Virus record (IMG/VR): IMGVR_UViG_3300017963_000585 | Coordinates: 1 to 31,350 of that record | Length of the DNA: 31,350 nucleotides | DNA from: a virus | Direction: 5' to 3' (one strand) | Part shown: one piece after another, positions 712 to 27,131 of the stretch | Position numbering within the stretch: the stretch's first letter is position 1 | Layout: each line of letters opens with the position of its first letter | Program-made: the position numbers and the translations under genes | Notes under the pieces: generated by a model | Seen by the model: the letters and a program-made list of their open reading frames with translations, nothing else | What the model was told of the DNA's origin: nothing | Databases searched by the model: none

Positions 712-713
712 TT

Positions 714-986: not shown

Positions 987-989
987 TGA

Positions 990-3784: not shown

Positions 3785-3785
3785 A

Positions 3786-4275: not shown

Positions 4276-4286
4276 AGGAGAAGATA

Positions 4287-6189: not shown

Positions 6190-6198
6190 GAGTAGATA

Positions 6199-8533: not shown

Positions 8534-8538
8534 GTATA

Positions 8539-8566: not shown

Positions 8567-8578
8567 ATAAGTGAAACG

Positions 8579-8592
8579 TTACAACGTTGTAA
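8579..8592 (+). promoter_or_regulatory. 14-bp perfect palindrome between capsid promoter and ribosome site (operator candidate)
   Basis: TTACAACGTTGTAA is identical to its reverse complement. It lies about +5 to +19 from the predicted transcription start and touches the AAGGAG ribosome site (8591-8596). The hexamer AACGTT also occurs just before it (8575-8580), giving two copies 8 nt apart. It could be a repressor site in DNA or a small RNA hairpin (5-bp stem, ACGT loop) that partly masks the ribosome site. It is seen directly; the role is inferred. Confidence 0.5.
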
Positions 8593-8602
8593 GGAGAAGT
8601 CT

Positions 8603-9658
8603 ATGGAGAAAATTAAAAGTAATAAACATACCACGGAACTAGGATATTTAGGTATTACTAGACATTATGAAGGATCTGATGGTAAATGGTATGTTGAAGG
8701 ATATGCATCTACTGCTGATATTGATTCTCGTTCAGATAGAATAACTTTAGATGCTCTTAGAGGAGCTAAAGATAATTTAGTTAATAATTATGGAATTTTA
8801 CTATTTAATCATGACTCAAATAGTCCTACTGGAAGAGTAGTTAATGCAGAAGTAGATGCTAGAGGATTAAAAATTACCGCTTTCATTTCTAAACAAGCTG
8901 AGAAAGTTTGGGAATGGGTTAAAGAGGGCGTAATCAACTCTTTTTCAATAGGTGGATTTATTGTTAAAGCAGTTAAATTTTTTGATAAAGAAGTGAATCA
9001 GATGGTTAGAGAGATTCGCAGATTAGAATTAGTGGAAGTAAGTTTAGTTTCACTTCCAGCTAATCCTTATGCTAAAACTACTGGTTTTTATGTTGGAAAA
9101 GCTTTAGATGTTGTTGATTTAGAAGATCTGACTGAGAAATCGGTGGAAGAGGCTCAAGAAGAAGAAATCAAACAGGAGGTAGATATGACTAATGAAGTAA
9201 CAAAAGATGTGGAAGCTACTGAAGAAGAGGTTGTGGAAACCTCTTCTGATGAAGAAGAAACAAAAGATTTAGAAGAAGAAGAATCTGAAGTTACTGAAGA
9301 AGAGGAATCTACTGATGAGCCTGAAAAGGATGCAAAAATTGAAGATGAAGTTGAGGAAGAGGAAGAAGAGGATGAAGCTGAAGAGGACGAAGATATTGAT
9401 CCCGACTTAGTTGAGGATCTAGTTGATGAAATCGTTGAAAAAGTGGAAACTAAACTTCTTCCTATTCTTGAAGCTAAGATTACTTCAATTATAGAAGAAA
9501 AAATGCCTAAGAAAAAAGCAAAAGAAGCGAAGGGCATTAAGGAAGCTGAACATCCTAAAGACGGTGAATCTTTAGAGGACATCATGAATTCTGGTGACGA
9601 AGATGATAAAAAGAGAGCTTTAGATAGTTGGTTAGCTGGTGTTTTAAGAAGAAGATAA
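8603..9658 (+). CDS. HK97-family prohead protease fused to an acidic scaffold domain
   Basis: The protease domain covers residues about 15-165. It has the expected serine protease residues of the U35/S78 prohead family: H70 in LLFNHDS, S115 in NSFSIGGF and the LVEVSLVSLPANP strand at 142-154. It cleaves scaffold and itself once the prohead is built. Residues about 170-351 form a separate region, extremely rich in Glu/Asp (about 200-270), then a helical stretch (LVDEIVEKVETKLLPILEAK) and a basic end (LAGVLRRR). This looks like an internal scaffold that keeps capsid subunits in place. The capsid protein has no long N-terminal delta domain, so a separate scaffold is needed. A perfect internal ribosome site at 9174-9180 suggests the scaffold is also made alone. 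AAGGAG precedes the ATG at 8603. Confidence 0.93.
   Translation: MEKIKSNKHTTELGYLGITRHYEGSDGKWYVEGYASTADIDSRSDRITLDALRGAKDNLVNNYGILLFNHDSNSPTGRVVNAEVDARGLKITAFISKQAEKVWEWVKEGVINSFSIGGFIVKAVKFFDKEVNQMVREIRRLELVEVSLVSLPANPYAKTTGFYVGKALDVVDLEDLTEKSVEEAQEEEIKQEVDMTNEVTKDVEATEEEVVETSSDEEETKDLEEEESEVTEEEESTDEPEKDAKIEDEVEEEEEEDEAEEDEDIDPDLVEDLVDEIVEKVETKLLPILEAKITSIIEEKMPKKKAKEAKGIKEAEHPKDGESLEDIMNSGDEDDKKRALDSWLAGVLRRR
9185..9658 (+). CDS. Nested in-frame scaffold protein (internal start within the protease gene)
   Basis: An ATG at codon 195 of the protease gene lies 5 nt after AGGAGGT (9174-9180), the best ribosome site in the window and better than that of the full gene. It would yield a 157-residue acidic, helical protein identical to the C-terminal scaffold region. 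The same arrangement, protease with a nested scaffold, is known from lambda (C and Nu3). It would let the phage make many scaffold copies and few protease copies. The ribosome site could be chance, because the encoded QEVD lies in a Glu-rich region, but an exact 7-nt match at ideal spacing next to an ATG is unlikely. Confidence 0.7.
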   Translation: MTNEVTKDVEATEEEVVETSSDEEETKDLEEEESEVTEEEESTDEPEKDAKIEDEVEEEEEEDEAEEDEDIDPDLVEDLVDEIVEKVETKLLPILEAKITSIIEEKMPKKKAKEAKGIKEAEHPKDGESLEDIMNSGDEDDKKRALDSWLAGVLRRR

Positions 9659-9674
9659 TCAGACTTGATCTGAT
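9658..9674 (+). terminator. Weak hairpin after the protease/scaffold gene
   Basis: ATCAGA (9658-9663) and TCTGAT (9669-9674) form a 6-bp stem with a 5-nt loop directly at the stop codon, followed by ATTTTCTTATTT. The stem is short and AT-rich, so it would at most attenuate transcription or mark an mRNA processing point. The rest of the 111-nt gap up to the capsid gene shows no convincing promoter (CATAAT at 9749-9754 lacks a -35). Confidence 0.35.
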
Positions 9675-9769
9675 ATTTTCTTATTTAAGGAAGCTGAATA
9701 TAAGTGGAAGCAACAGCCATCAAACTGAGCGGAAACTTGTAGGAAGCGCATAATAGATAGGAGTGGCAT

Positions 9770-10726
9770 ATGAGTACACTGAGAAGAGAGCTTATTGAAA
9801 AGGCTGTTACTTCTAGCGGTGTCTCTGACTTTATCCCTACGATAGTGGCCGCAGAGTTTATAAAGAATCTTCGTGAAAAAAACATCATGAGACAAAACTT
9901 CCGTACTATCAATATGCCTTCTGCTGTTTACAACGTGCCTAGAGTTTCTACTGGTACTACTGTTTATTACGTTTCAGAGGGTTCAACTGCTCCTGAAACA
10001 AGTGTATCTAGTGGTGTTATGGCTCTTACAGCAAAGAAACTTTTTGCACAAGTGCTTGTAAATGAGGAAGCTATTGAGGATGCTGTTGCTAACATGATGG
10101 AAGTGGTTCGTGAAGATTTTGTAGATGCGATGGCTACTGCCGAAGAAAGGGCTATGATTCAGGGTGATAGTGATTATGCTGACACAACTGAAACTGAGGG
10201 TGACGCAGATGCAGATACTTGGTATACAAAAGACTCAAGACTTGCTTTTGATGGTGCTTTAGCACTTGCTGAATCTGGTGATGCTGCTACAAAGATTAAT
10301 GCTGACAGTGGTAGCATGACTACAAGTTTAGTTAACAGAGCAAGATATGGTCTTGGAAAATTCGGAAGATATGCATCTAACCTAATTATGGTTGTGAACC
10401 CAATTAGTGCAAAGCAGCTTCGTGAGGACGATAAAATCGTTACAATCGACAAGTTCGGTCCACAAGCTACTATTAAGCTTGGATGGGTTACTACTGTTTA
10501 CGGTATTAACATCATCGAAAGTGGACAATGCACAGATGGATATGCATTCTGTTGCCCAAAAGATAACCTAGTAATTGGTGATCGTAGAAAGATTAAAGTT
10601 AAGACTGAGGAAGTTATTGAATCTGATCAACGTAGAATTGTTCTTTCAGAAAGAATTGCTTTCTCTATCCGTTATCCTGGTGGGATCATCGAGATCTACG
10701 GCTTAAGCACAGACGCAAGTACATAA
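9770..10726 (+). CDS. Major capsid protein, HK97 fold
   Basis: The 318-residue protein has the Phage_capsid (PF05065-like) pattern. A short N-terminal arm with LRRELIEKA is followed by an E-loop region (VYYVSEGSTAPETS), the long spine helix (LVNEEAIEDAVANMMEVVREDF), a GDSDYADTTETEGDADADTW acidic loop and P-domain/A-domain strands ending IAFSIRYPGGIIEIYGL. It forms the icosahedral shell. No long delta domain precedes the arm. Codon use differs from its neighbours: Asn is AAC in 9 of 13 codons and CGT is frequent for Arg, whereas AAT and AGA dominate elsewhere. This suggests selection for heavy expression. It shares a transcription unit with the protease/scaffold gene and is closed by a strong terminator. 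The AGGAG site lies 8 nt before the ATG. Confidence 0.95.
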   Translation: MSTLRRELIEKAVTSSGVSDFIPTIVAAEFIKNLREKNIMRQNFRTINMPSAVYNVPRVSTGTTVYYVSEGSTAPETSVSSGVMALTAKKLFAQVLVNEEAIEDAVANMMEVVREDFVDAMATAEERAMIQGDSDYADTTETEGDADADTWYTKDSRLAFDGALALAESGDAATKINADSGSMTTSLVNRARYGLGKFGRYASNLIMVVNPISAKQLREDDKIVTIDKFGPQATIKLGWVTTVYGINIIESGQCTDGYAFCCPKDNLVIGDRRKIKVKTEEVIESDQRRIVLSERIAFSIRYPGGIIEIYGLSTDAST

Positions 10727-10746
10727 TCTAATTTTGGTAATTAATT

Positions 10747-10783
10747 GGGGGGAGGGCGAGAATTCTCCCCTCCCCCATTTTTT
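10747..10783 (+). terminator. Strong intrinsic terminator after the capsid gene
   Basis: A G-rich arm (10748-10760) pairs with a C-rich arm (10765-10776) in 12 base pairs with one bulged C (10757) and an AATT loop, followed by A and six Ts. It stands out as the most GC-rich spot in an AT-rich region. It ends the capsid unit; genes downstream would be transcribed by readthrough or from unseen promoters, since only 14 nt separate it from the next ATG. Confidence 0.92.
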
Positions 10784-10797
10784 GAAAGGTTGCGTAC

Positions 10798-13584
10798 ATG
10801 GGACGTTTGGATAACATTAGTGTTGTAGTTTTTTGTAAACATTATTCAGGACTTCATACAGGCGGTCGTCTGTATGCTCATTTAATGACACACGCTTTAG
10901 CTGCTGAAGGAGCTAAAGTAACTCTTTCCACAGAATATTTTCCTTCTTATCATGATTATTTTAAAGATATTCCTGGACATGATTCTATAGAGATAATTCA
11001 TGGAAGAAATTATGGTGGGGCCAAAAGACTGAAGCAAGTAAAGGCTGATATTGCTATTGGTGTTCAGTTTGAAGGTGCTGGGTATGCACGATGGTTTAAG
11101 GAGCAGAAGAAAGTTCCATTTATATTATTTATTTATGATACACCTAATTGGATGAAACAAGCTTGGGTTAATCCTTTAGAAGAGTTTACTTCAATTGAAG
11201 ATAAGATGAGAAGAGTAAATATATCTGCTAAAAAGGCAGATAGGATTGTTTATCTTTCTATTGAGGCTAGAAAATGGGGAATAGAATATTTTAAAGACTA
11301 TAAAGTTAAGGAAGAGACACATCAGCTTGTATTATATCCTGCCATTAATCAAATAATTGCTGATCAGGTAAAGCAAATTACTCCATTTGAAGTTCGTCAG
11401 GGAGCATGTTTCATTTCTAGATTATGTCATTACAAACGTCCTGATATGGCTATTGAGATTTGTGGATTAGCAAACATACGACATTTAACAATGATTGGTT
11501 GGGATAATCTAGGACAACATTCTGATAGATTGATAAAATTAGCCAGAGAAAAAGGTGTCGAATTACATTTATATAATAATATGGACGAGAAGGAGAAGTT
11601 CAAAGTTATACAAAATTCTAAGATGTTATTAGCCACCACTACTTTTGAAGGTTATGGTTTGCCAATAGAAGAAGCTTTGTATATGAATACACCGGCAATA
11701 GTTTATTCTAATGTGCCAGTATTTAAAGAGATTTTTGTTGATAGAGTTCATTATGCTAATACAACAGAGCAATTTGCTGAACTAGCTAAAACGTTAAACA
11801 AAGATAAAAAATTTTGGTTGTCTAAACAGGATAAAAATAGAGATGTTATTACTAGAAATAATTTTAGTAGATATTGTGATGCTTTAGCTGGTGTTGTTTT
11901 AAATACATTAAATAATACTGGTAAAGTTAGTGTTCCCATTACTAATACTGTTATTCCTGAGAAAGTTAGATTAGAGCATAAAACTAAGATAAGTATTTTA
12001 ATGCCGTTGTACAAACCAGACTATAGATATTTAAATATAGCTATAAATTCTATATTTAAACAATTTTATACAAATTGGGAACTTTGTATTGGTATGGATG
12101 GTGAAGATAAAGAATTAGAAGAAATTTTGGAAACATATAAAAAATCCGTAGGAAATAAAATTAAATGGAAAGTTCAGGAACATGATGGAATAGCTAAAGC
12201 TACATCTACAGCTATGAATTTAGCTACTGGAAATTATTGGGCATTTATGGATGGCGATGATGTACTAGAGCCTAATGCTTTGCTTGAATTTGCTAATTTA
12301 TTTGAAACTAACCCAAATCTTAAAATGGCATATTCTAATGAAAGACAAATTACTGGAACTGATAGCATAATTGGTGATAGAAAAAAACCTGATTGGAGTC
12401 CAGAATTTTTTAGACAAGAAATGTTTATTAACCATATGAAAATATTTAGAGCTAAAGAAGCGAAAAAAGTTGGTTATCCGCGCAAAGAGTATGGAGGTAG
12501 CCAAGATTATGATTGGGCATTAAGATTTACCGAACTATGTAAACCAAATGAAGTGGGGCATATACCAAAAGTGCTCTATAACTGGCGAATTCATGGAAAA
12601 AATATTAGTTCTGGGCATCCAGAACGTCAATGGTTGGCTTTTGTTTATGCTAAAAAGGCAGTAGAGGATCACATGAAGCGTATAGGACTTGATGCTAAAC
12701 TTTGGCCTTTAATAGATACTGGAAATTATCATATTAGAAGAAATATTCATGGTAAACCAAAGGTATTAATTATATTATTAACTAATAAAAAAGTTGGAAT
12801 GTTTAAAAAATGTTTAGATGCTATAGAACGTGAAACTAGTTATGATAATTATGATATACAATTAATGCATCATACTATTGAATCTAATGAAGTTATGGAT
12901 GAAATGCTTGATGTATTACCATATCCAGTAATTAAAATAGATGAACCATTTAATTTTGCTAAATTTCATAATAAAATTTGTTTGAAAAATAGAAATAAAT
13001 ACGACTATTTTGTAATTATTAATGATGATATAATAGTTAATAGAGATTGGTTATCTGAAATGTTAGGAATAGCTACACAAGATAAGAAAGTTGGGGTGGT
13101 TGGTGCAAAATTATTATATCCATATCACAAAGATGACTTTCGAGAATATTCATATCCGTTAACTTACTACAGTAATCAAGGAATATTGCAGCATGGTGGG
13201 GTGAATTTAGTAAAGGATTTAGGAGGATGTAGGCATAGATATTATCAAAAAGCAGCTAATTCTTTAAGAATTAATTATATAGATGAAGTTGATGCAGTAA
13301 CATTTGCTTTATGTTTGATTAAGGCAAATTTATTTAATCATACAAAGTTAGATGAGGAACTTCATATAGATTATAATGATGTAGATTTTTGTCTGCAAAT
13401 AAAGCAGAAAGGGTATAAGACTATGTACTGTCCTTGGGCACTGGCTTGGCATTTTGAATCTGCTACCCGTCCAAAAAAACCAACATACAAAAATGTAGAA
13501 TATTTTAGAAAAAAGTGGGCAAATTTATTAAAACAACAGCCCACTACAGCACAAAGGTTAATAATGGAGGAACAAGGATTATGA
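10798..13584 (+). CDS. Three-domain glycosyltransferase (GT4 + GT2 + GT2)
   Basis: The protein has 928 residues with three transferase domains in a row. Residues 1-375 are a GT-B, GT4-type domain with a GGR loop at 22-24 and the EX7E signature E284/E292 in EGYGLPIEEAL. Residues 395-640 are a GT-A, GT2-type domain with a DGDD metal site (485-488) and the base motif QDYDWALRF (569-577). Residues 653-895 are a second GT2-type domain, rhamnosyltransferase-like, with INDDI (741-745) and DYNDVDFCLQI (858-868). Key residues are intact in all three, so it could add three sugars in sequence to one acceptor. There is no membrane segment or signal peptide; it should act in the cytoplasm on soluble protein. 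It follows the capsid terminator and is coupled (ATGA) to two methyltransferases. Capsid is the obvious candidate substrate, but this is inferred from position; host glycan modification is an alternative. Confidence 0.9.
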   Translation: MGRLDNISVVVFCKHYSGLHTGGRLYAHLMTHALAAEGAKVTLSTEYFPSYHDYFKDIPGHDSIEIIHGRNYGGAKRLKQVKADIAIGVQFEGAGYARWFKEQKKVPFILFIYDTPNWMKQAWVNPLEEFTSIEDKMRRVNISAKKADRIVYLSIEARKWGIEYFKDYKVKEETHQLVLYPAINQIIADQVKQITPFEVRQGACFISRLCHYKRPDMAIEICGLANIRHLTMIGWDNLGQHSDRLIKLAREKGVELHLYNNMDEKEKFKVIQNSKMLLATTTFEGYGLPIEEALYMNTPAIVYSNVPVFKEIFVDRVHYANTTEQFAELAKTLNKDKKFWLSKQDKNRDVITRNNFSRYCDALAGVVLNTLNNTGKVSVPITNTVIPEKVRLEHKTKISILMPLYKPDYRYLNIAINSIFKQFYTNWELCIGMDGEDKELEEILETYKKSVGNKIKWKVQEHDGIAKATSTAMNLATGNYWAFMDGDDVLEPNALLEFANLFETNPNLKMAYSNERQITGTDSIIGDRKKPDWSPEFFRQEMFINHMKIFRAKEAKKVGYPRKEYGGSQDYDWALRFTELCKPNEVGHIPKVLYNWRIHGKNISSGHPERQWLAFVYAKKAVEDHMKRIGLDAKLWPLIDTGNYHIRRNIHGKPKVLIILLTNKKVGMFKKCLDAIERETSYDNYDIQLMHHTIESNEVMDEMLDVLPYPVIKIDEPFNFAKFHNKICLKNRNKYDYFVIINDDIIVNRDWLSEMLGIATQDKKVGVVGAKLLYPYHKDDFREYSYPLTYYSNQGILQHGGVNLVKDLGGCRHRYYQKAANSLRINYIDEVDAVTFALCLIKANLFNHTKLDEELHIDYNDVDFCLQIKQKGYKTMYCPWALAWHFESATRPKKPTYKNVEYFRKKWANLLKQQPTTAQRLIMEEQGL

Positions 13585-14129
13585 CAGTAGATAGACCAGA
13601 AATTAATTGGGCAGAACTTAAAAATTTAAAAATTGAATTAGGTGGTGGGCAGTACCCTAAAGGAGAGGGACTTATTAATATTGATATGCTTGATATTCCA
13701 GGAGTAGATCTTGTGATGAATTTTGATGTTGATAAATTTCCATTTTCCGATAATTCAGTATCATATATCTATTCTTCACACACATTTGAGCATATTAGAA
13801 GTCTTTTTCCTTTGTTAAATGAAATGCTTAGAATATCTATGAGTGGAGCTAGATGGAAGATAATTACTCCACATCCATTTAGAGCCTCCACAATGACTCC
13901 AGGACACATACAAGTTTTATCTAAAGAATTCTGGATTCAACGTTCCATGAATCAGTATAATCATTTCCCTGAAGGATGCGAAATCGAAATTGAATCTTTT
14001 GAGGAACCAATTGATGTTGGTGTTAGAGAGACTTTAGAACGAGCTAATATTAATCCTGATTTTGCTTTATTACACATGGTTAATATATCAGCAGATTTAA
14101 TAGCAAATTTAAGAGTACATAAAAAATGA
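13581..14129 (+). CDS. Class I SAM-dependent methyltransferase (first of a pair)
   Basis: The protein has 182 residues. The SAM-binding motif I is IELGGGQ (18-24), followed by LINID (31-35) at the end of strand 2, FPFSDNSVSYIYSSHTFEH (53-71), and WKIITPHP as a later strand. The HTFEH motif and the overall pattern fit the Methyltransf_11-like group, often found in sugar biosynthesis clusters. I use the ATG at 13581 because it overlaps the preceding stop (ATGA) and has AAGGA and GGAGG upstream. A longer in-frame start 66 nt earlier would overlap the transferase domain end and lacks support. Likely role: O-methylation of a sugar on the glycan made by the neighbouring transferases. The exact substrate is unknown. 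Confidence 0.85.
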   Translation: MTVDRPEINWAELKNLKIELGGGQYPKGEGLINIDMLDIPGVDLVMNFDVDKFPFSDNSVSYIYSSHTFEHIRSLFPLLNEMLRISMSGARWKIITPHPFRASTMTPGHIQVLSKEFWIQRSMNQYNHFPEGCEIEIESFEEPIDVGVRETLERANINPDFALLHMVNISADLIANLRVHKK

Positions 14130-14764
14130 CAATAGAGCCTGATTATAAAATAGTAAATAATGCTTCTACGACATGCCCTCATACACTTGATATTTTTTTG
14201 TCGCTACTAAATGAAATGAATGATGTTTCTATTTTAGAATTGGGAGCAAAAAATCAGGGCGGTGAACACACATCGAAATTACACAAAAAAGAATGGTTTA
14301 ATGGGGATAACATAAAAGAAATAATTACATCAGACATAGAAAATGGAGAAGAAATAGATCAAGTTGCTGATATACATGATTTAACTTCAGTTTTTGGTAA
14401 AGATAGATTTGATGTGGTGAGTTGTTCTGTTACTTTAGAACATGTTAAGTATCCGTGGATAGCGGCAGAGGAAATATCTAAAGTGACTAAAATAGGTGGA
14501 TTAGTCTATATTATTGTTCCACACACTTTTGTAACTCATGCATATCCTGATGATTACTGGAGATTTACAGACCATGCTTTAGAGATATTATTTGGCCCTC
14601 AAACCGGATTTGAAGTAATACAGTCTAGTTATATGTTTCAGTGCTATATTCATAGTGAACAAAATAAACAACAAAAAGATCTAACTACTGCATTTTTACT
14701 TTCTTCAATAGTATCTAGAAAAGTAAAGCATGTAGATAAAGTTATATGGTTTCAAAAGGAGTGA
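14126..14764 (+). CDS. Class I SAM-dependent methyltransferase (second of the pair)
   Basis: The protein has 212 residues with motif I ILELGAKNQGG (36-46), ITSDIENG (67-74), RFDVVSCSVTLEHV (94-107) and a late strand GGLVYIIVPHTF. A following YPDDYWRFT is typical of methyltransferases that act on small carbohydrate substrates or glycans. It differs too much from the preceding methyltransferase to be a recent duplicate. It starts at an ATGA overlap with its neighbour, so the two are probably made in equal amounts. A second modification position on the same glycan is the likely explanation. The 4-nt overlap makes an alternative start unlikely. Confidence 0.85.
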   Translation: MTIEPDYKIVNNASTTCPHTLDIFLSLLNEMNDVSILELGAKNQGGEHTSKLHKKEWFNGDNIKEIITSDIENGEEIDQVADIHDLTSVFGKDRFDVVSCSVTLEHVKYPWIAAEEISKVTKIGGLVYIIVPHTFVTHAYPDDYWRFTDHALEILFGPQTGFEVIQSSYMFQCYIHSEQNKQQKDLTTAFLLSSIVSRKVKHVDKVIWFQKE

Positions 14765-14767
14765 ACA

Positions 14768-15088
14768 ATGCCTAGATATGATTATAAATGCCCAAGATGC
14801 AATATTGTAGAAGAAAAAGAACATGGTATAAAAGAAAATCCTAATATTAGATGTCCAAAGTGTGATAGTAGAATGTTTATAATTATCACACAAAATCCTA
14901 CCGTAATCTGGATAGATAACCCATATGATCCATCAGGTCCAACATGGCAAAGTAAAGAAGATAGATGGTTAAATAGTGGTGAAGCAATTAGAGTTAAGGA
15001 ACAAAAAAAGAGAAGAGATACAAAAATTGAAGAGTCTTTTTATTCTGGTAATGCAAAAGACATGCTTAAAAAAGGAGTTGTTAAATGA
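14768..15088 (+). CDS. FmdB-like zinc-ribbon protein
   Basis: The protein has 106 residues. The N-terminal 45 residues match the FmdB/putative regulatory zinc ribbon family (PF09723-like): MPRYDYKCPRCN, a short spacer, then IRCPKCDSRM, giving two CxxC pairs (C8/C11 and C29/C32). The rest is polar and Lys-rich and probably disordered or helical. The family's molecular role is not settled; it binds zinc and occurs in phages and bacteria. A strong AAAAGGAG site precedes the ATG. It lies within the glycan block and overlaps the epimerase start by 4 nt (ATGA), so it is made with it, but I see nothing tying it to sugar chemistry. Confidence 0.8.
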   Translation: MPRYDYKCPRCNIVEEKEHGIKENPNIRCPKCDSRMFIIITQNPTVIWIDNPYDPSGPTWQSKEDRWLNSGEAIRVKEQKKRRDTKIEESFYSGNAKDMLKKGVVK

Positions 15089-16128
15089 ATATTCTTGTAA
15101 CTGGAGGAGCGGGATATCTTGGATCAATTATATCTGCTGAACTAGCTGTTGCTGGTCACAAAGTAACTGTATATGATGCTGGTTGGTATGGATTTGAAGG
15201 TATAAAGGATGTCCAACCTAGAATAAATGTAATTCAAAAAGACATCAGGCAAATACTCGAAGAGCATATAAATGGTAATGATGCGGTTATTCATTTAGCA
15301 GCATTATCGAATGATCCAAGTTTTGATTTTATTTCAACAGCAAATTGGGAAATGAACTATGAAGCAACTAAAAGACTCGTTGACTTAGTAGTAGAATGTG
15401 AAGTGGATAATTTTATTTTTGCCAGCACAGCAAGTGTTTATGGATTTGATCCTTGGAGAAAATTGGATGAGACATCTGAAATTAACCCACAGAGTAATTA
15501 TGGTAGATCTAAAGTTAAGTGTGAAGAGTATATTTTAGAAACTGCTAAAAAGACCTCTTTAAAACCCATTATTCTTAGAATGGGCACATTAATGGGAGCA
15601 AGTCCTAGAATGAGATATGATTTAGTAGCAAATGCTATGATAGCTTCCGCATTTTTTACTGGAGTTATTAGAGTTTTTGCTGGCGGAGAAAATTGGCGAC
15701 CTTTATTAAATGTTGTAGATGCAGCAAATGTTTATGTAGATATTGTAAACAGGGATCTTTTTGCTGAAAATAAATGTGAAATTTTTAATGTTGTTAGAAA
15801 AAACTATCGTATTTCTGAACTTGCAAATTATATAAAACATTGTATTATGATGATAGATAGTGGGTATCCAATAGAAATTTTAATAGATTATGAAGGACAG
15901 GAATCTAGAAGTTATCAAATTACTGGTGAAAAGCTTAAAAGTAAACTAGGAATTGAGCCTTCTAGCGGTGTTTTGCCTACAGTACAGCATTTATGGAGTT
16001 CATTTAAAGCGGGACAGGAGCCAGATTATCAAGATGCTCGTAATAATAATTTAAAATGGATGAAAGCTCTTGTTTCTGCTGAAGAAGTAATTTCTAAAGT
16101 AGGAGGAATTCTCTACTTAGAGAAATAA
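15085..16128 (+). CDS. NAD-dependent sugar epimerase/dehydratase (extended SDR)
   Basis: The protein has 347 residues. The N-terminal Rossmann motif is TGGAGYLG (6-13). The catalytic set is ASTASVYG (113-120) and Y139-x3-K143 in NYGRSKVK. IILRMGTLMGASPR and the WRPLLNVVDAA region match GalE/RmlB-like and NDP-sugar epimerase families. It probably interconverts or dehydrates an NDP-sugar to supply one of the transferases nearby. The C-terminal region (WMKALVSAEEVISKVGG) is less typical. I cannot tell which sugar from sequence alone. It ends the five-gene block and is followed by the head-tail connector 10 nt later, so the block is inserted inside the head module rather than at its end. Confidence 0.9.
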   Translation: MNILVTGGAGYLGSIISAELAVAGHKVTVYDAGWYGFEGIKDVQPRINVIQKDIRQILEEHINGNDAVIHLAALSNDPSFDFISTANWEMNYEATKRLVDLVVECEVDNFIFASTASVYGFDPWRKLDETSEINPQSNYGRSKVKCEEYILETAKKTSLKPIILRMGTLMGASPRMRYDLVANAMIASAFFTGVIRVFAGGENWRPLLNVVDAANVYVDIVNRDLFAENKCEIFNVVRKNYRISELANYIKHCIMMIDSGYPIEILIDYEGQESRSYQITGEKLKSKLGIEPSSGVLPTVQHLWSSFKAGQEPDYQDARNNNLKWMKALVSAEEVISKVGGILYLEK

Positions 16129-18484: not shown

Positions 18485-19819
18485 ATGCTTGAAGATAAAG
18501 ATTCTATTAAAAAATTTTATTCTTGGAAACCGTTATGTACTGAATTACTTCCTAACAAAGTAGCTACTTCAATCTTCGCTGAAAACAGGAAATTTACAAT
18601 CCCAGAGCTGTCTAAAACTCCATCAGTAATAGATTTGCTAGATAATAATTTAAGTCTACAGATAAATTTAACCGGATATGTTTATTACTATGGTGGGTAT
18701 GCCAGTTTTACTAGAGAAATAATAAAACGACTTGAAAGAAAAAATCATTTAATACGTCTTGATCCAATACCATCGGGTATAGATTTAGATCCGTTTGAAT
18801 TTCAATATTTTAAATTATTAACACAAGCTCCTTTAGACAAAGAGAAGCAGATTATAAATCTTCTTATTTCTTCTCCTAGATATTATAATCCAGAATTAAT
18901 TAAAGATATTGATAAAAAAATATTGTGGACAATGATGGAGACAAGACAAGTTCATAGTGAAGCGATTGATAGATGTTTTGATTTCGACGAAGTTTGGCTT
19001 CCAACTTCCTTAGATATAGAAAGATTTGGTGAAGATATAGATTTAAGAGGATCATTAAAATTAGTAAAATTTGGAATAGATTTTGAAAAATATGATGGTG
19101 AATTAGTGAGTCCTATGAAATTAGATAATATAGATAATAAATTTGTATTTATGTTTTGTGGTAATTGGAATAAAAGAAAAGGAATAGATATAATAATTCG
19201 CTCTTTTTGTAAGGCTTTTGATGGAAATCGTGACGTTGCTTTAGTTTTATTTTCTAAATATGCCACAAGACCTTATGGTGAGTTAAAGGATTATGAACAA
19301 AGATGGACTATAAAACATGAATTTGAGAAATTTACAGAAGATTTTAGGCTTTCTACGATGCCACAAATTTGTATTATAGATTGTGCTGTTCATCCTAATG
19401 TAGTTCCATCACTTATGAAACGAGCAAATTGTTGTGTGGCTGCTAGTTTAGGGGAAAGTTTGTGGCTACCAGGACTTGAATTTGGTGCATTAAAAGTGCC
19501 TATTATACAGACTGAGTGGGGAGGTTTTAGAGATTATTTGAATGATGAAAATTCTTTTTTAATAAATAATAAAGGATTTCAAGTTGCTGATGAGGAATTA
19601 GTAGAAGGCACTTCTGATTATTTTAAAGATCAAGAATTTGCAATTCCAGATGAAGATGATCTAATTGACAAAATGCAGTATATTTACAAAAATTACAATG
19701 CTGCTATAATAAAAGCGGAGAAATTGTATAATTTTATACAACCTAATTATGACTGGAAAATCTTGATCGACAAGATAAATAGTAATTTAAAGGAGGTAGC
19801 AAATGAGCCTAGCATATAA
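18485..19819 (+). CDS. GT4-type (GT-B) glycosyltransferase between tail terminator and tail tube genes
   Basis: The protein has 444 residues in two Rossmann-like halves. The N-terminal half has a glycine loop GGYASFTREI (70-79), and the C-terminal half contains the donor site: FCGNWNKRKGIDIIIRSF (224-241) and the EX7E signature E324/E332 in GESLWLPGLEFGALKVP, then IIQTEWGGFRDYL. Retaining GT4 enzymes of this type use NDP-sugars, and both key Glu residues are present. There is no membrane span. It begins with a good AAGGAG and overlaps the tube gene by 17 nt. The last 140 nt of the gene contain a consensus-like promoter and the ribosome site of the tube gene. The location suggests the tail tube or terminator as acceptor, which is inference. 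The DNA look is like its neighbours. Confidence 0.9.
   Translation: MLEDKDSIKKFYSWKPLCTELLPNKVATSIFAENRKFTIPELSKTPSVIDLLDNNLSLQINLTGYVYYYGGYASFTREIIKRLERKNHLIRLDPIPSGIDLDPFEFQYFKLLTQAPLDKEKQIINLLISSPRYYNPELIKDIDKKILWTMMETRQVHSEAIDRCFDFDEVWLPTSLDIERFGEDIDLRGSLKLVKFGIDFEKYDGELVSPMKLDNIDNKFVFMFCGNWNKRKGIDIIIRSFCKAFDGNRDVALVLFSKYATRPYGELKDYEQRWTIKHEFEKFTEDFRLSTMPQICIIDCAVHPNVVPSLMKRANCCVAASLGESLWLPGLEFGALKVPIIQTEWGGFRDYLNDENSFLINNKGFQVADEELVEGTSDYFKDQEFAIPDEDDLIDKMQYIYKNYNAAIIKAEKLYNFIQPNYDWKILIDKINSNLKEVANEPSI
19683..19710 (+). promoter_or_regulatory. Promoter with extended -10 inside the glycosyltransferase gene, upstream of the tail tube gene
   Basis: TTTACA (19683-19688, 5/6) is followed after 16 nt by TATAAT (19705-19710, 6/6), and the bases before the -10 are TGC, giving the extended -10 TGnTATAAT. 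Transcription would begin about 19717, roughly 86 nt before the tail tube ATG. The element lies within coding sequence, so it could be chance in AT-rich DNA. The match quality and its placement ahead of a highly expressed gene argue for function. Confidence 0.65.
19724..19741 (+). repeat. Inverted repeat just downstream of the tail tube promoter
   Basis: TTGTATAA (19724-19731) and TTATACAA (19734-19741) are perfect inverted copies with two Ts between, about +8 to +25 from the predicted start. It lies at nearly the same distance from its promoter as the palindrome at 8579-8592 from the capsid promoter. It could be an operator or a short RNA stem; being coding and AT-rich, it could also be chance. 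Confidence 0.45.
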
Positions 19820-20273: not shown

Positions 20274-20612
20274 ATGAAAGGATTTAAGATTGAGCTTGGA
20301 AAGACTAATGATGATTCTGAAGAATTTGTTGTGCAGCCAATTAAAGTAGAAGATTTACCAAAAGCTTTAGCGTTGATTAATAAATTAAATGATTTAGACA
20401 TCGAAGAAAAGGAAATTGATGAAACAGACCAAACTAAATCTAATGAGATTTTACAAAAAAGAGTGGATATTAGTGTAGATTTATTTACTTTAGTTATGTC
20501 TAGAAATTATCCTAATAAAAGTAGAGAAGATTGGTTAGAAATTGTTGATATTGGAGATGTTTTTGGTGTTATGAATAGAATGTGGGAAGGTATAGGACCA
20601 ACAAAGGTCTAA
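20274..20612 (+). CDS. Tail assembly chaperone-like protein (upstream ORF)
   Basis: The protein has 112 residues: a short beta start (FKIELGKTNDDSEEFVVQPIKVEDL), then helices. The pattern and location, between tube and tape measure, match tail assembly chaperones (lambda gpG role), which coat the tape measure during tail assembly and are absent from the finished virion. A strong AAGGAGG lies before the ATG. The reading frame ends 2 nt before the start of the next ORF, which is in the -1 frame relative to this one and overlaps it from 20579. In many phages these two are joined by -1 frameshifting; here no standard slippery heptamer is seen in the overlap. Confidence 0.7.
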   Translation: MKGFKIELGKTNDDSEEFVVQPIKVEDLPKALALINKLNDLDIEEKEIDETDQTKSNEILQKRVDISVDLFTLVMSRNYPNKSREDWLEIVDIGDVFGVMNRMWEGIGPTKV

Positions 20613-20614
20613 CA

Positions 20615-20956
20615 ATGGAACTAAATAATTTAAATGAAGATGAGTTATTTAAGATAATTGCTGGATTGATAAGTATGTTTCCAGCATATAAATTTGAAGA
20701 TTTTTTATCTATGGAAATAGATTTATTTTTCAAAATACTTAAAATTGCATCAGAAAGATCTAAAGAATTATCTGGTAAAGAGTTTTATGAGGAAGAAGAG
20801 ACAAAGATTGTTGATCAACAACAAGACAAGGCAAATTTATTAGGATTATTAACATTATATGGGGTTAATATTAAAGATTTAGAAGAGAAAAATTATAAAT
20901 TAAATCTAGTGGATTTAAAGAAACATCAAAGGGAGAAGTATAAACATGCCAAGTGA
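20615..20956 (+). CDS. Second tail assembly chaperone-like protein (gpGT partner position)
   Basis: The protein has 113 residues from the ATG at 20615, helical throughout (DELFKIIAGLISMFPAYKFEDFLSMEIDLFFKIL), with an acidic patch EEEETK and a basic end (KKHQREKYKHAK). The ATG has AAAGG 7 nt upstream, so independent translation is likely. A longer GTG start at 20582 would overlap the previous gene. It is in the -1 frame relative to the upstream ORF, and its frame is open from 20579, so a fused product by frameshifting is possible. It ends inside the tape measure gene (11-nt overlap), again typical of tail chaperones. Confidence 0.7.
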   Translation: MELNNLNEDELFKIIAGLISMFPAYKFEDFLSMEIDLFFKILKIASERSKELSGKEFYEEEETKIVDQQQDKANLLGLLTLYGVNIKDLEEKNYKLNLVDLKKHQREKYKHAK

Positions 20957-23486
20957 AGTAGAGGTTGGTAATTTAGTTGTTGGGATGCAAGTTAGATTAG
21001 ATGAACTTAAATCTAATCTTAGCAAAGCTGAACGTGAACTCAGGGACTTTCGAAAAAAATTACCACAACCTGAGAGTATAGGAAGAAAACTGGGAAGAGG
21101 TATATCTGATGCGGCCCGTCATTTAATGGGGTTTGCTAAAATTGGTCTTTCTGTTGTTTCTCTTGCGCTAATTCCGATTGTTGGTATTGCTAGAAAAGTT
21201 TTTGGGGTAATTTCTGCCGTTTTTAGTAAAATAGTACGAATTGCTGGAGATACAATTGGATTTATGGTTAATAAATTTAAATGGGGGCTTCTTGCTATTG
21301 GTGCTGCATTTGTTGGTATTTCTTATGTTGGATCGCAGTTTGAATTTGGTATGAAAAAAGTATTTGCTCGTTTAGGTGGTGAATCTTCATTATTAGGAAA
21401 TCAAATAACTATTCTAACAAAAAAAGCAAAAGAGCTGGGTCGTACTACGTTATTTACAGCCAGAGAATCTTCAGAAGGAATGGAAATTTTAGCTAGGGCT
21501 GGATTTTCAGTTAATGAAATTACTACACTAATTGGGCCTACTTTAAAAGCGGCTCAAGCTAACGCAATGGGATTAGCCAATACTGCTGATATTGCTTCTA
21601 CTATATTTAGAGCATTTACTGGAAAAGTAGATTCTCTTGAAACTGCCTTAGATATGGTAACATATACAGCTAATAGTAGTTTAAATACTTTTGAAGATTT
21701 AGGTGTGGCATATAGTTATATTGGTCAAGTTACAGGCCCATTAAAAACTTCATTTGCTGAAATTACTGCTGCTTTAGGGATTTTAGGTAATGTTGGATTA
21801 AAGGGAAGCAGGGCTGGAACTGCTTTAAGAAGAGTATTATTAAAACTTAATGATCTTAGTGGTCCTGCTGCTAGATTCTTAAATGAATTAGGATTAGCAG
21901 AGGAAGATGTCAGTACTAAAACTTACACACTTGCTCAAATTATTGATAAATTAAATAAAGCTGGATTAGATGCTGCCGATACAACGCAACTTGTTGGTAT
22001 TCGTGGTGGCCCTGCTTTATCTGCATTATTAACTCAGGGTGGAGATGCTGTTAGAGATTTTGCTAATGAAATTGCTGATACTTCTAGGTATGTTGATATA
22101 CTTCAAAAAGATATGCAGAGAGGATTAATTCCACAACTTAAATTATTAAAAAGCGCAGTAGAATCTGCTGCTGCATCTCTTTATGAAAAATATGGCCCAG
22201 CATTAACTAGAATAGTTGAAAAAATAAAAAATGGCGCAGAACAAGTTGCTAAGACTCTTGAAGAGGATACGCGGGTAGCTAATATATTAGATAAAATTGT
22301 GGAAGGATTGGAAGAGACTGGTAATCAAGCATTAAAAATTGGCAAAAATTTAGGAATTGGATTTGTTGCCTCATTAAATGCGTCTGCTGATAAATATATA
22401 GCTTTGTTTGAGAGATTTGGTGTTGGTGTTGAAGGATTAAGTGAATCTATAACTCCTGAAAGCGCTGCTGGTTTCTTTGATAAGATACATAGAGTTGTTA
22501 TACGAATTGGTACAGAAGTGGCAAATATAATGGAAGATATAAAAGTAGAGAATATATTACAGGTACTTAAAGACCTTTTAGAAGGGATGAGATCTTTTGG
22601 TGGGTATCTATTATCAGATGTCATACCAACAGCTATGGCGTTTATGGATGCATTTGCTAAAAAATTTATTGGCGCGTTGGGATGGGCGGACAGAAAAAAA
22701 GCGTGGTTAGCAGCAGGTATAACTAATGTTGGCAGACCAATTGCTACTGCTGGAGCGTGGGGGGCATCTTTGTTGGGGTCATTTTTTGGAATTCGTAGTA
22801 CAGGATTGCTTGGTGCTGGTAAGATGAGCGCAGAAGAATCTAAGTCTGCGCTTATAAGTGCTATGAGAGCCGCAAACAAAGACGCAGGAAAAGTGTGGAG
22901 AGATGCTGGTAAGGAAAATGCTGCAAGATACAGAAATCCTACATTAGATGCATATAATGCACTTTCTGAAGAATTAGGCGGAGATGTTGTGTCCGCTGCT
23001 TTAACTAGAGCACAAAATTTCTTTTTAGAACCTAGAGGTGGAGGTGTTTTAAAAAGAACAGGCAACTTAGTTAGTGATATCACTGATATAGTACAATCTC
23101 CAGCAAGAAATATACCAATCCCACCATCTACTGAGGAAATATTGGAAGAGCAAAGAAACGCATATAGAAAGTTAAAGCGCTTCATGTATAACATTTTACC
23201 TCATGAAGAATTCACAATACCAGAATTATTACGAATAAATGCTGAAATGATAGAAAGTTACAAAAATATTATTCACATTCATAGAGATATGATTGGTATT
23301 TACAGAAATGATACTGAACAACTTAAAGAAATTTATGATGAATTTAAGTTTGCGAATGAAAGAATAGAAATTCTTGAAGCCGAAAGAAAATTCTTACGTT
23401 GGAAAGAAGAGGAAGCTAAATTAAAATCTATATCTATTAAACAAAATTCAGATGCTCAAACTCCTTTAGGGATTAGAGGGAAATAA
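20946..23486 (+). CDS. Tape measure protein
   Basis: The protein has 846 residues. The N-terminal coiled region (LDELKSNLSKAERELRDF) is followed by hydrophobic stretches (about 62-130, including IGLSVVSLALIPIVGIA and WGLLAIGAAFVGISYVG). The conserved tape measure domain (PhageMin_Tail-like) lies at about 150-370, with KELGRTTLFTARESSEGMEILARAG, FRAFTGKVDSLETALDMVTYTANSS and GSRAGTALRRVLLKL. The C-terminus is long and helical. It sets tail length; at about 0.15 nm per residue the tail would be roughly 125 nm. The hydrophobic part may help DNA cross the host membrane. The ATG overlaps the chaperone by 11 nt with GGGAG upstream. I see no lysozyme or peptidase domain. Confidence 0.93.
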   Translation: MPSEVEVGNLVVGMQVRLDELKSNLSKAERELRDFRKKLPQPESIGRKLGRGISDAARHLMGFAKIGLSVVSLALIPIVGIARKVFGVISAVFSKIVRIAGDTIGFMVNKFKWGLLAIGAAFVGISYVGSQFEFGMKKVFARLGGESSLLGNQITILTKKAKELGRTTLFTARESSEGMEILARAGFSVNEITTLIGPTLKAAQANAMGLANTADIASTIFRAFTGKVDSLETALDMVTYTANSSLNTFEDLGVAYSYIGQVTGPLKTSFAEITAALGILGNVGLKGSRAGTALRRVLLKLNDLSGPAARFLNELGLAEEDVSTKTYTLAQIIDKLNKAGLDAADTTQLVGIRGGPALSALLTQGGDAVRDFANEIADTSRYVDILQKDMQRGLIPQLKLLKSAVESAAASLYEKYGPALTRIVEKIKNGAEQVAKTLEEDTRVANILDKIVEGLEETGNQALKIGKNLGIGFVASLNASADKYIALFERFGVGVEGLSESITPESAAGFFDKIHRVVIRIGTEVANIMEDIKVENILQVLKDLLEGMRSFGGYLLSDVIPTAMAFMDAFAKKFIGALGWADRKKAWLAAGITNVGRPIATAGAWGASLLGSFFGIRSTGLLGAGKMSAEESKSALISAMRAANKDAGKVWRDAGKENAARYRNPTLDAYNALSEELGGDVVSAALTRAQNFFLEPRGGGVLKRTGNLVSDITDIVQSPARNIPIPPSTEEILEEQRNAYRKLKRFMYNILPHEEFTIPELLRINAEMIESYKNIIHIHRDMIGIYRNDTEQLKEIYDEFKFANERIEILEAERKFLRWKEEEAKLKSISIKQNSDAQTPLGIRGK

Positions 23487-23488: not shown

Positions 23489-23872
23489 ATGGCTATAACA
23501 CCGCAAGATCAATTAGCTGGATGGTTTGGTTCTGTTCAAATAGGTTCTCATGCTTATTTGGTTAGGACTAGGCAGAAGAATATTCTTGTCGAACAGATTC
23601 CTAGATTAGATTATGTTGTTATTAAAGATCTAGGCGCTGGTACTCCTGCCACATTCACAGTAAAAGCCTGGTGTCGTGGTGGTAATATGACTAATAGACA
23701 AACTGTAGAACAGTATATGAATGAGTTAGAGGATGATTTAAGTGATGCTTCTCCAGACACATTAACTGTTTCTGGAAGATCATATACAAACTGTCATTTT
23801 TATGATATTTCATTTGATGGGAAGGATGAAAAGTGGTTGTATTTAACTATTACCTTCTACAGATCTAGTTAG
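23489..23872 (+). CDS. Small tail protein after the tape measure, unassigned
   Basis: The protein has 127 residues, mainly beta: WFGSVQIGSHAYLVRTRQKN, YVVIKDLGAGTPATFTVKAWC, then a helix MTNRQTVEQYMNELEDDLSD and strands ending WLYLTITFYRSS. The strand-helix-strand order resembles tail tube-like or distal-tail-like folds, and the position after the tape measure fits a tail tip or initiator component. There are no motifs that allow a name. It begins 2 nt after the tape measure stop. The gap to the next gene (10 nt) shows that a glycosyltransferase-like gene has been placed directly behind it. Confidence 0.65.
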   Translation: MAITPQDQLAGWFGSVQIGSHAYLVRTRQKNILVEQIPRLDYVVIKDLGAGTPATFTVKAWCRGGNMTNRQTVEQYMNELEDDLSDASPDTLTVSGRSYTNCHFYDISFDGKDEKWLYLTITFYRSS

Positions 23873-23882: not shown

Positions 23883-25772
23883 ATGAGAATATTGGTTGTT
23901 CATAGTGGTTTTGTGTTTAGTTCTGGCGAAATTGGACTTTCTCTTGTTGCAGCATTGAAGAGACAGGGGCATTGGGTAGTAGAATACGAAACTTATAAAA
24001 GTCTAGAAATGGCTAAACAATGGTTGCAAACTAGATATTTATTTACTTATAAACCTATGGTTGAAAGTGAAATACTCGAACTTACATCTGGTCATATAAC
24101 TAATGAATGTATTTATGATGAGATAGATACTGTATTGTTTATACATGGTGTGCATATCCATCCAATGCATATCAACGCTTTAAATAAATTAAATATTACT
24201 ACAGCATTATGGCTTTTAGATGATCCACATGAATTTGATTTAAATAAAGAGAGATCTAGGTATTACAAACTTATATTTACAAATGATAAAAATACTGTAG
24301 ACAAATATGAACGTCCTTCTTTCTATGTCCCAACTGCTGTAGATCCAGAAGTTTTTAAAGTATTAGATAAACCAATATCTGATGTTTCATATTATGATAT
24401 TTTGGTTTATGGAAGTTTCTATCCTGAAAGACTAAGTTTTTTATCAAAATTAATTCAGTTAAATAAAGATAAGTATTCTATTTTAGGATTTGGCAGGACA
24501 AAAAATGAGATAAATGGTTTAGATTGGGTTAATAAACCTTATTTGTGGAAATCTGTTGTGCCAAGAATAAATAATTGTCATATTGTATTAGACATAGCTA
24601 GAGATCCATTCCGATCTGCTTATGGTGCTACAAATAATGGAGAAATTTTACCTAGTAATATTAATCCAAGAATTTATGAAGCCGCTGCATGTGGAAAATT
24701 ACCAATTACTAATTGTAATATAGACACATTATCAGAAGCTTTTGGAGAAGATATAGCTAAAGCAATTCATTATGATTCTGTAGAGGAGGCACACGAAAAA
24801 ATAGATTGGTTTATTAATCACTTACCAGATTATTATGCTGTTGTGACTGACTTGAATTCAAAAGTTTTATCTGAGCATACATATGATAAACGAGCAGAAA
24901 TTATAACTCAAAAACTCAAAGAATTTTCTCCAAAGCCAATAACTAGAAGAATTAAAGTAGTTGAATCTACTAGACGACAACTTACTCCGATATGGGATAA
25001 TAATTATGAAGAAAACAAAAAAAGAATAAATAAAGAAAATACAATTAAAGTATTTGAGAATCAATTTAATAATAAAACAGGAATAATTGTCAGTAATGGA
25101 CCTAGTTTTAAGAATTTTGCTTACAAACAACAGGAAAGACTTTCTTATAAATATTTAGTAGAAGATGGAGCAATAGGAATTTCAGTTAATTCTGCGTATA
25201 AAGAGATGTGTAAACTGAATATTGATAATTTATTTGAAATGATTATAGATCCAAAAGAAGATCAGGCAAAGCATTTTAAGGATTGTAATACTGAAAAATC
25301 TATTCTTTTAGCAAGTTATTTAACTAGTCCAAAGATGTTAAATGAGTGGAAAGGAAACATAAAATTTTTTGCTACTTCTGCTGCGAATGAAAAATATAAA
25401 CCGTATGAGGGATTACCAAGACTATCTCCAGGTCTCACAGTAATTTACTCAGCCATGCAATTTCTAATATATACCGGATGCAAACGGATAATATTTGTAG
25501 GTTGCGATTTAGCCTATACAAATGGATTTGAATATTATAATGTTGAATTGGAAAAAGATAAAATTAGTGAAAAATCCGAGGATTATATAGTAACCCTAGA
25601 TTTACACGATAAAATGACTATTACTACACCTGTAATGATAGAAACTAGAAATTTAATTCGTGAAGAAGTAGAAAATAGAAAAGATGTAGTATTTATTAAT
25701 GCGTCTAATGATGGTATAATACACGGAGAGAACATTGTTTTAAAATCTTTAGAGAAGGTGTTGGAGGAATAA
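23883..25772 (+). CDS. CgeB-like glycosyltransferase fused to a DUF115/Maf-like domain
   Basis: The protein has 629 residues in two parts. Residues 1-345 look like a GT-B fold of the CgeB/Glyco_trans_1_2 group: start RILVVHSGF, the DDPHEF region (113-118) and the donor-site motif NPRIYEAAACGKLPITN (261-277). Residues about 385-600 match DUF115/Maf-like proteins: TGIIVSNGPSFKN (399-411), ISVNSAYK (433-440), IIDPKEDQAKHF (454-465) and GLTVIYSAMQF with IIFVGCDLAYTNG (517-548). Maf proteins attach nonulosonic acids to flagellin in bacteria. No membrane span is seen. The linker (350-385) is basic. It lies between tail genes, and only 1 nt separates it from the following structural gene. A transfer of sugars to a tail or fibre protein is the natural reading; acceptor and donor are unknown. 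Confidence 0.85.
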   Translation: MRILVVHSGFVFSSGEIGLSLVAALKRQGHWVVEYETYKSLEMAKQWLQTRYLFTYKPMVESEILELTSGHITNECIYDEIDTVLFIHGVHIHPMHINALNKLNITTALWLLDDPHEFDLNKERSRYYKLIFTNDKNTVDKYERPSFYVPTAVDPEVFKVLDKPISDVSYYDILVYGSFYPERLSFLSKLIQLNKDKYSILGFGRTKNEINGLDWVNKPYLWKSVVPRINNCHIVLDIARDPFRSAYGATNNGEILPSNINPRIYEAAACGKLPITNCNIDTLSEAFGEDIAKAIHYDSVEEAHEKIDWFINHLPDYYAVVTDLNSKVLSEHTYDKRAEIITQKLKEFSPKPITRRIKVVESTRRQLTPIWDNNYEENKKRINKENTIKVFENQFNNKTGIIVSNGPSFKNFAYKQQERLSYKYLVEDGAIGISVNSAYKEMCKLNIDNLFEMIIDPKEDQAKHFKDCNTEKSILLASYLTSPKMLNEWKGNIKFFATSAANEKYKPYEGLPRLSPGLTVIYSAMQFLIYTGCKRIIFVGCDLAYTNGFEYYNVELEKDKISEKSEDYIVTLDLHDKMTITTPVMIETRNLIREEVENRKDVVFINASNDGIIHGENIVLKSLEKVLEE

Positions 25773-25773: not shown

Positions 25774-26337
25774 ATGCCTATTACTGCAAGTGAAATACAA
25801 TTTTATAAGCCTATGACTATAGCTGCTTCTGTTGGTGCGACTTCTTATGGTGGTAGCATTGGAGCTAGTGTTTTGTCTGGTACACTAAACGAAATATTAT
25901 TTGCTCAATCTGCTGAAGAAGCTGGAGGAGCAACAATTAAGCAATATCAAAAGCTCTTTATAAAGAATGCAGATCCTTCTATTAATTATACAAGTTGTTC
26001 TATTTGGTTAGGTTCCCAGGAACATTCATGGCAAGATACTGAAGCTGGATCTGTGTTGCTCCCACAAATCACTATTGCACTAGAAAAAGCATCTGCTTCT
26101 GGTAGCGCTATTTTAGATGGTACAAACGCTGGTTCTGCGCCAACAACCCTACCACCATACATAAGTTCTGGAGATTTTACTGCTCCTGCTTCTGCTGGCA
26201 TTGGTTTAGCTCCACCAAATGTTAGAATTGATGCTAATTCAGCACAAGGGATATGGATTAGACGGCAGTTGGTTGCTGGGGTAGTGGCAGATGCAAGTTC
26301 AACAGCTAGAATCAATGTGAAAGGCTATTCTACATAA
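25774..26337 (+). CDS. Tail/baseplate structural protein of a Mu-like-phage family
   Basis: The protein has 187 residues. The pattern ITASEIQFYKPM...SIGASVLSGTLNEILFAQSAEEAGGATIKQYQKLFIKNADPS recalls a structural family seen in many phages, in which ITAxxIxxxxS, an N-(I/L)LF strand, a YxKxFxKN strand and a C-terminal GIWIRRxxxAGxxAD strand recur. The exact role is not established to my knowledge. It is beta-rich and Ala/Ser/Gly-rich, with no signal peptide or membrane span, and probably part of the tail tip. It follows the CgeB-like fusion and overlaps the FN3-like gene by one base. The Ser/Thr-rich surface loops (SASGSAILDGTNAGSAPTT) would be suitable O-glycosylation sites; that is inference. 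Confidence 0.6.
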   Translation: MPITASEIQFYKPMTIAASVGATSYGGSIGASVLSGTLNEILFAQSAEEAGGATIKQYQKLFIKNADPSINYTSCSIWLGSQEHSWQDTEAGSVLLPQITIALEKASASGSAILDGTNAGSAPTTLPPYISSGDFTAPASAGIGLAPPNVRIDANSAQGIWIRRQLVAGVVADASSTARINVKGYST

Positions 26338-27131
26338 TGGCAATTTATGGCTCTATAATAATTGGTGTCACAACAAATGATACTTATCAATTTGCTATTG
26401 TTGCTGTTGATGAAGTTGGAAATGAAAGTACGCCTAAAGTTGGATCTATTATAGTTTCTGGTGTCCCAAACTCTCCAACTAATTTATCATTATCTTATGA
26501 TTCTGTGAATAAACAAATAACTCTTACTTGGGTAGATCCAACCAATTCAGATTTAGATGAATTGTTAGTTTATGGTAGTGGTGGAACTTCTGATTATCCA
26601 GATTTAAGTAGTCCAATTGATACAATAGCTTCTGGAGTGCAGCAATATCAAACAGCTACCAATTTAGCTGATGGTACATATGCATATATAGTAAGGGCTA
26701 AAAGCACTAACGGAAAAATAGAGAGAAATGGAAGTGTGGTTGGGCAAATTATTCCACAAACCCCTGCTGCTCCATACGGGGTTATTTCTGTTCCTATTGC
26801 TGGTGGAGGAGCAGAGATAGTGTGGAATAAACCAGTTCTAACTGATAATGCATTTTTTAAATATATTACTCCAACAAGATTTAGGATTTATAGTGATGGT
26901 GGATCATTAGCTTCATGTACAACATTAGAAAGTAGTGTGGAAGCAGAAACCGCGATTAGTCAGTCTTGTACTTTAGCTTCATTAACTGCTTCAGGAAGCG
27001 AATTATGGAAATTTGCAGTTAGTGGAACATATGGAAGTGCAGAAGGAATTAAATCTAATATGGCTAGTGCTATTTTAGATGCTGTAGTTCCTTCCGCTGT
27101 GGCTACTGCCACATTAGAAGTGGTGGCGTAA
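26337..27131 (+). CDS. Tail protein with fibronectin type III-like domains
   Basis: The protein has 264 residues. Residues about 1-40 form part of a beta sandwich (YQFAIVAVDEVGNESTPKVG), a typical FN3 G-strand ending. A complete FN3-like domain covers about 42-135 (PNSPTNLSLSYDSVNKQITLTWVDP, then the TYAYIVRAKS strand), and a second about 140-235 (GGAEIVWNKP, FRIYSDGG, WKFAVSGTYG). FN3 domains on phage tails are thought to bind surface carbohydrate or act as spacers. It shares one base with the previous gene and ends 1 nt before the hub-like gene. The first unit looks incomplete, so the gene may have lost its N-terminal part or the domain may be completed by the preceding protein. Confidence 0.7.
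   Translation: MAIYGSIIIGVTTNDTYQFAIVAVDEVGNESTPKVGSIIVSGVPNSPTNLSLSYDSVNKQITLTWVDPTNSDLDELLVYGSGGTSDYPDLSSPIDTIASGVQQYQTATNLADGTYAYIVRAKSTNGKIERNGSVVGQIIPQTPAAPYGVISVPIAGGGAEIVWNKPVLTDNAFFKYITPTRFRIYSDGGSLASCTTLESSVEAETAISQSCTLASLTASGSELWKFAVSGTYGSAEGIKSNMASAILDAVVPSAVATATLEVVA

Follow-up and report, generated by a model that had tools for sequence, protein, structure and literature searches.

Maf proteins are protein O-glycosyltransferases (PMC11339370), and the Maf of Magnetospirillum (5MU5) is a solved representative of those that modify flagellin. In phages, particle glycosylation has been reported for few members. Virion glycans of Che8 were described by Freeman 2023 (as cited in PMC11256854), in a study whose title links mycobacteriophage virion glycosylation to immune recognition, and in mycobacteriophage Corndog, an O-methyltransferase gene and glycosyltransferase genes are located between the portal and protease genes (PMC4351075). 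In the parts of these sources drawn upon here, Corndog, with glycosyltransferases and a methyltransferase in a structural operon, is the closest published parallel to the locus described below, and neither a Maf-like enzyme nor a CgeB-Maf fusion is described for Corndog or Che8. In the open-licence literature, we found no paper on DUF115/Maf proteins in phage structural operons or on CgeB in phages.

Here, we report on P0001, a protein encoded by the 31,350 nt linear IMG/VR record IMGVR_UViG_3300017963_000585, the whole of which is referred to as the window. P0001 is similar to the Maf flagellin O-glycosyltransferases in having a PF01973 domain that scores above the cut-off, the Maf fold over 239 residues and the C-terminal extension. 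However, it lacks the Maf_flag10_N domain and has a CgeB-like GT-B enzyme in its place, it is encoded in a phage tail operon and not in a flagellin island, and two residues, His552 and Glu609, are replaced. Its N-terminal (N) half resembles the CgeB/PF13524 enzymes in PF13524, in the GT-B fold and in E266 with the NPRxYE..ACG motif, but differs from them in being fused to a Maf-like domain. Finally, the stand-alone Maf-like proteins encoded next to capsid genes in other uncultured phages (L179-L257) have the same PF01973 module and are also encoded in a structural operon, whereas they lack the GT-B half, are accompanied by other capsid and portal families, i.e. belong to a different phage lineage, and occupy a head rather than a tail position.

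A fusion gene in the tail module

The P0001 gene (Table 1) is preceded by an AGGAG upstream of its ATG, is separated by 10 bp from the preceding and by 1 bp from the next gene, and its antisense, translated in a single frame, contains many stops. GC3 is alike in the two halves (0.154 and 0.179). In Pfam searches, PF13524 (Glyco_trans_1_2, the CgeB-type GT-B C-terminal domain) matched residues 214-341 (39.4 bits, cut-off 25; E 7e-10) and PF01973 (MptE-like, i.e. DUF115) matched residues 374-547 (92.2 bits, cut-off 34.6; E 4e-26); DUF3880 at residues 110-162 remained below threshold (18.7 bits versus a cut-off of 25.2). In the C-terminal (C) half, PF01973 is followed by the extension common to Maf proteins. 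Maf_flag10_N (PF20157) gave no match in P0001 at E values up to 1. Thus, a CgeB-like and a DUF115/Maf-like domain are present in one protein, as claimed in a preliminary description of this DNA, with both Pfam domains above cut-off and both folds matched; the division into two domains stands, while the C half begins around residues 360-374 and not at residue 385. P0001 has no strongly hydrophobic segment, making a cytosolic enzyme plausible.

Table 1. Features of the window, with positions numbered from its first nucleotide.
Feature	Position	Strand	Details
GT4-GT2-GT2 glycosyltransferase	10798-13584	+	928 aa; directly after capsid gene
Two class I methyltransferase genes	13515-14764	+	13515-14129 and 14126-14764
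NAD-dependent sugar epimerase/dehydratase (SDR)	15085-16128	+	
Third glycosyltransferase ORF, GT4	18485-19819	+	phrog_2170; before putative tail tube gene
Tape measure protein	20946-23486	+	Tail-module marker
Dit-like gene	23489-23872		Weak match; just upstream of fusion
Whole fusion gene, P0001	23883-25772	+	629 aa; open from ATG to stop
N half, CgeB-like GT-B glycosyltransferase	23883-24932	+	Residues 1-350; Pfam, model, fold matches, viral relatives
C half, Maf-like domain	24948-25769	+	Residues 356-629; Pfam, model, fold matches, 5MU5 profile match
Ser/Thr-rich protein	25774-26337	+	187 aa; next gene after fusion; 20% S+T
fn3/phrog_31-like tail protein	26337-27131	+	22% S+T

All main genes of the window are on the plus strand. 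They follow the order terminase, portal, protease, capsid, GT4-GT2-GT2 protein, two methyltransferases, zinc ribbon and SDR epimerase and then connector genes, GT4 protein, tail tube, chaperones, tape measure, Dit-like protein, the fusion and tail-tip genes, the labels tail tube, chaperone and tail terminator being based on position and size only. Three glycosyltransferase ORFs, including the fusion, are dispersed in one structural operon. With the tape measure and the weakly matching Dit-like gene upstream and the fn3/phrog_31-like gene downstream, the fusion gene is inside the tail module, in agreement with the preliminary description. The two genes immediately after the fusion have the highest Ser+Thr content of the genes measured, and their position and composition make the encoded proteins candidate acceptors. 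A search for relatives of the 187-aa candidate found none.

Several other features of this operon were observed. The GT4-GT2-GT2 protein represents another sugar enzyme adjoining the capsid gene in this phage. Two overlapping ORFs (20274-20612 and 20582-20956) in front of the tape measure gene would, by position, encode tail assembly chaperones; a search by eye of their overlap gave no clear slippery heptamer for a -1 frameshift. Upstream of the terminase gene, an 829-aa protein (1295-3784) contains a concanavalin-A-like GH43_C2 domain and is possibly a particle or sugar-binding protein.

Predicted folds and conserved residues

The two halves of P0001 were modelled separately using AlphaFold and alignments that comprise only the relatives found in this analysis, giving a pLDDT of 85.8 for the N half and 85.5 for the C half. 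In the comparison with known Maf structures, 5MU5 is the nearest solved fold to the C half (Z 23.8, rmsd 3.0 over 239 aligned residues), followed by MptE (8SD5; Z 15.6), an archaeal 6-hydroxymethylpterin diphosphokinase with the same Pfam family name and a related fold, and then by Cst-I/Cst-II and mammalian sialyltransferases (Z about 9-10). Profile comparisons gave the same ranking (5MU5, E 3e-18; MptE, E 3e-14; Cst-I/II, E 0.008-0.05). We considered the C half as an MptE-type kinase and rejected this assignment because Maf scores higher in profile as well as in fold and MptE lacks the C-terminal extension of Maf. The N half has a GT4-type GT-B fold and, as a model, matches several GT4 enzymes, BshA best (Z 26.9); T4 AGT is also among its fold matches (Z about 22.8).

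We then tallied the positions at which at least 80% of relatives agree. In the C half, 17 conserved positions are kept, including GPS at residues 406-408, D456, G540, D542 and T581, and 15 are changed. The latter include His552, replaced by Tyr, and Glu609, replaced by Asn, both of which are conserved in 86-89% of relatives; in the alignment, 5MU5 itself has no Glu at the position of Glu609. In the N half, 32 conserved positions are kept (including R183, R244, N261, R263, E266 and C270, with the NPRxYE..ACG motif beside E266 intact) and 37 are changed (including N237 and R280). In the tree, no branch is longer than that of the C half, whose placement is unsure. As judged from the sequence and the models, we suggest that both halves are folded, diverged enzymes that are probably active.

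Distribution of the joined form and of each half alone

In single-protein searches, no close relatives of whole P0001 were found in GenBank phages, IMG/VR or GTDB contigs, and a plasmid search with P0001 returned matches to one half only, with the CgeB-like relatives on plasmids located in bacterial sugar or spore-coat loci. P0001 is the only ORF with both domains among 178 loci and 79 further loci, and the fusion is absent from 80 CgeB-like and about 120 Maf-like viral loci. Similarly, among 398 genomes of Bacillota_A (the GTDB term for the phylum of Anaerocolumna, G002), 49 match either half at E 1e-8 and none spans both, where matches without a retrieved locus were judged by match range alone; the Maf half is missing from the two long CgeB-like frames checked in these genomes (602 and 625 aa). 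In other words, the domain pairing, which the preliminary description considered unusual, is rare within a sampling of viral loci, GenBank phages and 398 Bacillota_A genomes. The two activities also adjoin in one bacterial locus, where they are encoded separately. In the Lachnospiraceae MAG HAN041 (L047, 801-7311), genes for a Maf protein, a hydrolase-GT2 (GT2-like) protein, a CgeB-like protein and a PseB-like protein, labelled as such by reading of the sequence and not by family search, are found in a row, and at this locus CgeB-like enzymes may be involved in making a flagellin glycan.

Each half alone occurs in many uncultured phages. CgeB-like relatives of the N half were found in 128 viral contigs, of which 80 were examined. 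A portal or tape measure gene was recognisable in 15 CgeB-like contigs; it is on the same strand as the CgeB-like gene in 15/15 and within 4 kb of it in 11/15. For the Maf-like half, a motif scan with the DNA pattern of GCxxIxFxGxD yielded 36 viral loci, of which about 30 were true. Of two profile scans, one returned 17 viral loci and the other at least 148, 80 of which were kept. At least 148 IMG/VR contigs carry a stand-alone Maf-like family of about 341 aa, which has no match in 50,697 GenBank phage records. In all of the 72 checkable contigs, i.e. those with enough upstream sequence, a relative of the L092 capsid gene (phrog_9953) is upstream of the Maf-like gene on the same strand, with a median gap of 516 bp; these contigs form 62 clusters at 90% identity and, because the phages are related to each other, do not represent independent events. 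The stand-alone proteins have about 49-62% identity to the query, and the retention of the gene across such wide protein divergence indicates selection.

This survey of CgeB-like and Maf-like viral loci does not support the view of the preliminary description that the location of the fusion is unusual: in many uncultured phages, CgeB-like genes are near the portal or tape measure gene, and in one phage group a stand-alone Maf-like gene comes after the capsid gene. The view that Maf-like proteins are usually chromosomal likewise does not hold for DUF115, given the stand-alone genes found throughout that group. The presence of each half among the structural genes of many uncultured phages suggests that such phages glycosylate their own particles.

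In L179-L257, the Maf-like gene is separated from the capsid gene by one small gene (e.g. L092, 6448-8918). This gene of roughly 165 aa (L092, 7376-7870) has no PHROG or Pfam match, and its product could be a decoration protein and an acceptor. Some of the longer viral Maf proteins, which carry TPR repeats, may come from bacterial DNA included in IMG/VR.

Proposed function and alternative readings

Based on these data, we suggest that P0001 is a cytosolic, bifunctional glycosyltransferase that decorates virion proteins of its own phage, most likely the tail-tip proteins encoded next to it, and we assign this model a probability of about 0.5. In this model, P0001 would be soluble and, while particles are being assembled, act in the cytoplasm of the host. 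A first sugar would be put on Ser/Thr residues of a tail protein by the Maf-like half; judged by homology, its nucleotide-activated donor would be a CMP-linked acidic sugar that the host provides. The CgeB-like GT-B half would follow with a second sugar taken from a UDP-type donor; alternatively, the two reactions would take place in the reverse order. Such decoration might, as the preliminary description put forward, let the tail mimic a host surface sugar. No nonulosonic-acid biosynthesis genes were recognised among the proteins scanned from the window and 10 kb upstream of it, which make up an incomplete genome; with no gene for making a CMP-activated acidic sugar recognised, the host would need to supply the donor. 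The donor sugars, the acceptor, the reaction order and the benefit of P0001 are what we infer at present.

Several observations favor a role in the virion: both halves have glycosyltransferase folds and retain much of the core motifs, the gene has a tail-operon position, each half recurs in structural operons of phages, and sugar- and methyl-modifying genes are found among the virion genes. In addition, the closest solved relative of the C half glycosylates proteins, and Maf, CgeB-like and PseB-like genes are neighbours in the bacterial locus L047. Against it are the replacements of His552, Glu609, N237 and R280, the long branch of the C half and the lack of a recognised donor pathway for nonulosonic acids; moreover, the tail-gene neighbourhood of P0001 does not prove the acceptor. 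On balance, we prefer glycosylation of virion tail proteins to the alternative readings.

More tentatively, and with somewhat less than even odds, we speculate that Maf-like enzymes constitute an unrecognised class of phage virion O-glycosyltransferases, with a conserved capsid-adjacent form in one uncultured phage group and a CgeB-fused form in a tail module that would build a two-sugar glycan on tail-tip proteins. If Maf-like enzymes do glycosylate virions, the predicted trait would reach at least 148 uncultured phage contigs in IMG/VR, whose Maf-like gene lacks a match in GenBank phages; the enzyme can be named and candidate acceptors are nearby, and the fusion would combine both steps of building a protein glycan in one chain. 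The Maf-like gene kept beside the capsid gene in an uncultured phage group is the more general result and the one most worth following.

An unlikely alternative is that P0001 modifies a sugar of the host surface or capsule, e.g. to block superinfection, and that its place among tail genes is a mosaic insertion. There is precedent in pelagimyophages, in which glycosyltransferase islands within the structural region have been interpreted in terms of O-chain modification (PMC7029224), and CgeB-like and GT4 enzymes are able to act on polysaccharides. However, the Maf relatives glycosylate proteins (PMC11339370), no membrane partner or flippase was recognised adjacent to P0001, expression alongside late virion genes would be odd timing for such a function, and the Maf-like family hardly varies in its capsid-adjacent position. 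It is also rather improbable that the Maf-like half is catalytically dead and binds acceptor or donor, leaving the CgeB-like half as the only active enzyme. While the changes of His552 and Glu609, the other substitutions and the long branch would fit a loss of activity, the predicted fold is intact, GPS 406-408, D456, G540, D542 and T581 are kept, and Maf 5MU5 also does without the Glu.

We regard glycosylation of modified bases in phage DNA by P0001 as very improbable. Phage glycosyltransferases with a role in DNA hypermodification are known (Pyle 2024, cited in PMC12619734), and T4 AGT is among the N-half matches, but GT-B folds are broadly alike, P0001 is encoded in the tail and not in the replication module, and a scan of proteins from the window and the 10 kb upstream of it, in this incomplete genome, revealed no recognisable hydroxymethylase or like base-hypermodification partner. 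Finally, although the fusion is known from one IMG/VR contig and the sibling contig, which spans window positions 1-12127 only, stops before it, the idea that assembly joined two genes is scarcely credible given one unbroken frame, tight spacing on both sides and the similar GC3, which make an in-frame mis-join unlikely.

The sibling contig, whose 12,127 bp shared with the window are 99.95% identical, extends about 10 kb further upstream. This region encodes a ribonucleotide reductase, two DNA methylases and, at positions 2498-4138 of that contig (L004), a Ro60/TROVE protein with a vWA domain (PF25045, PF05731).
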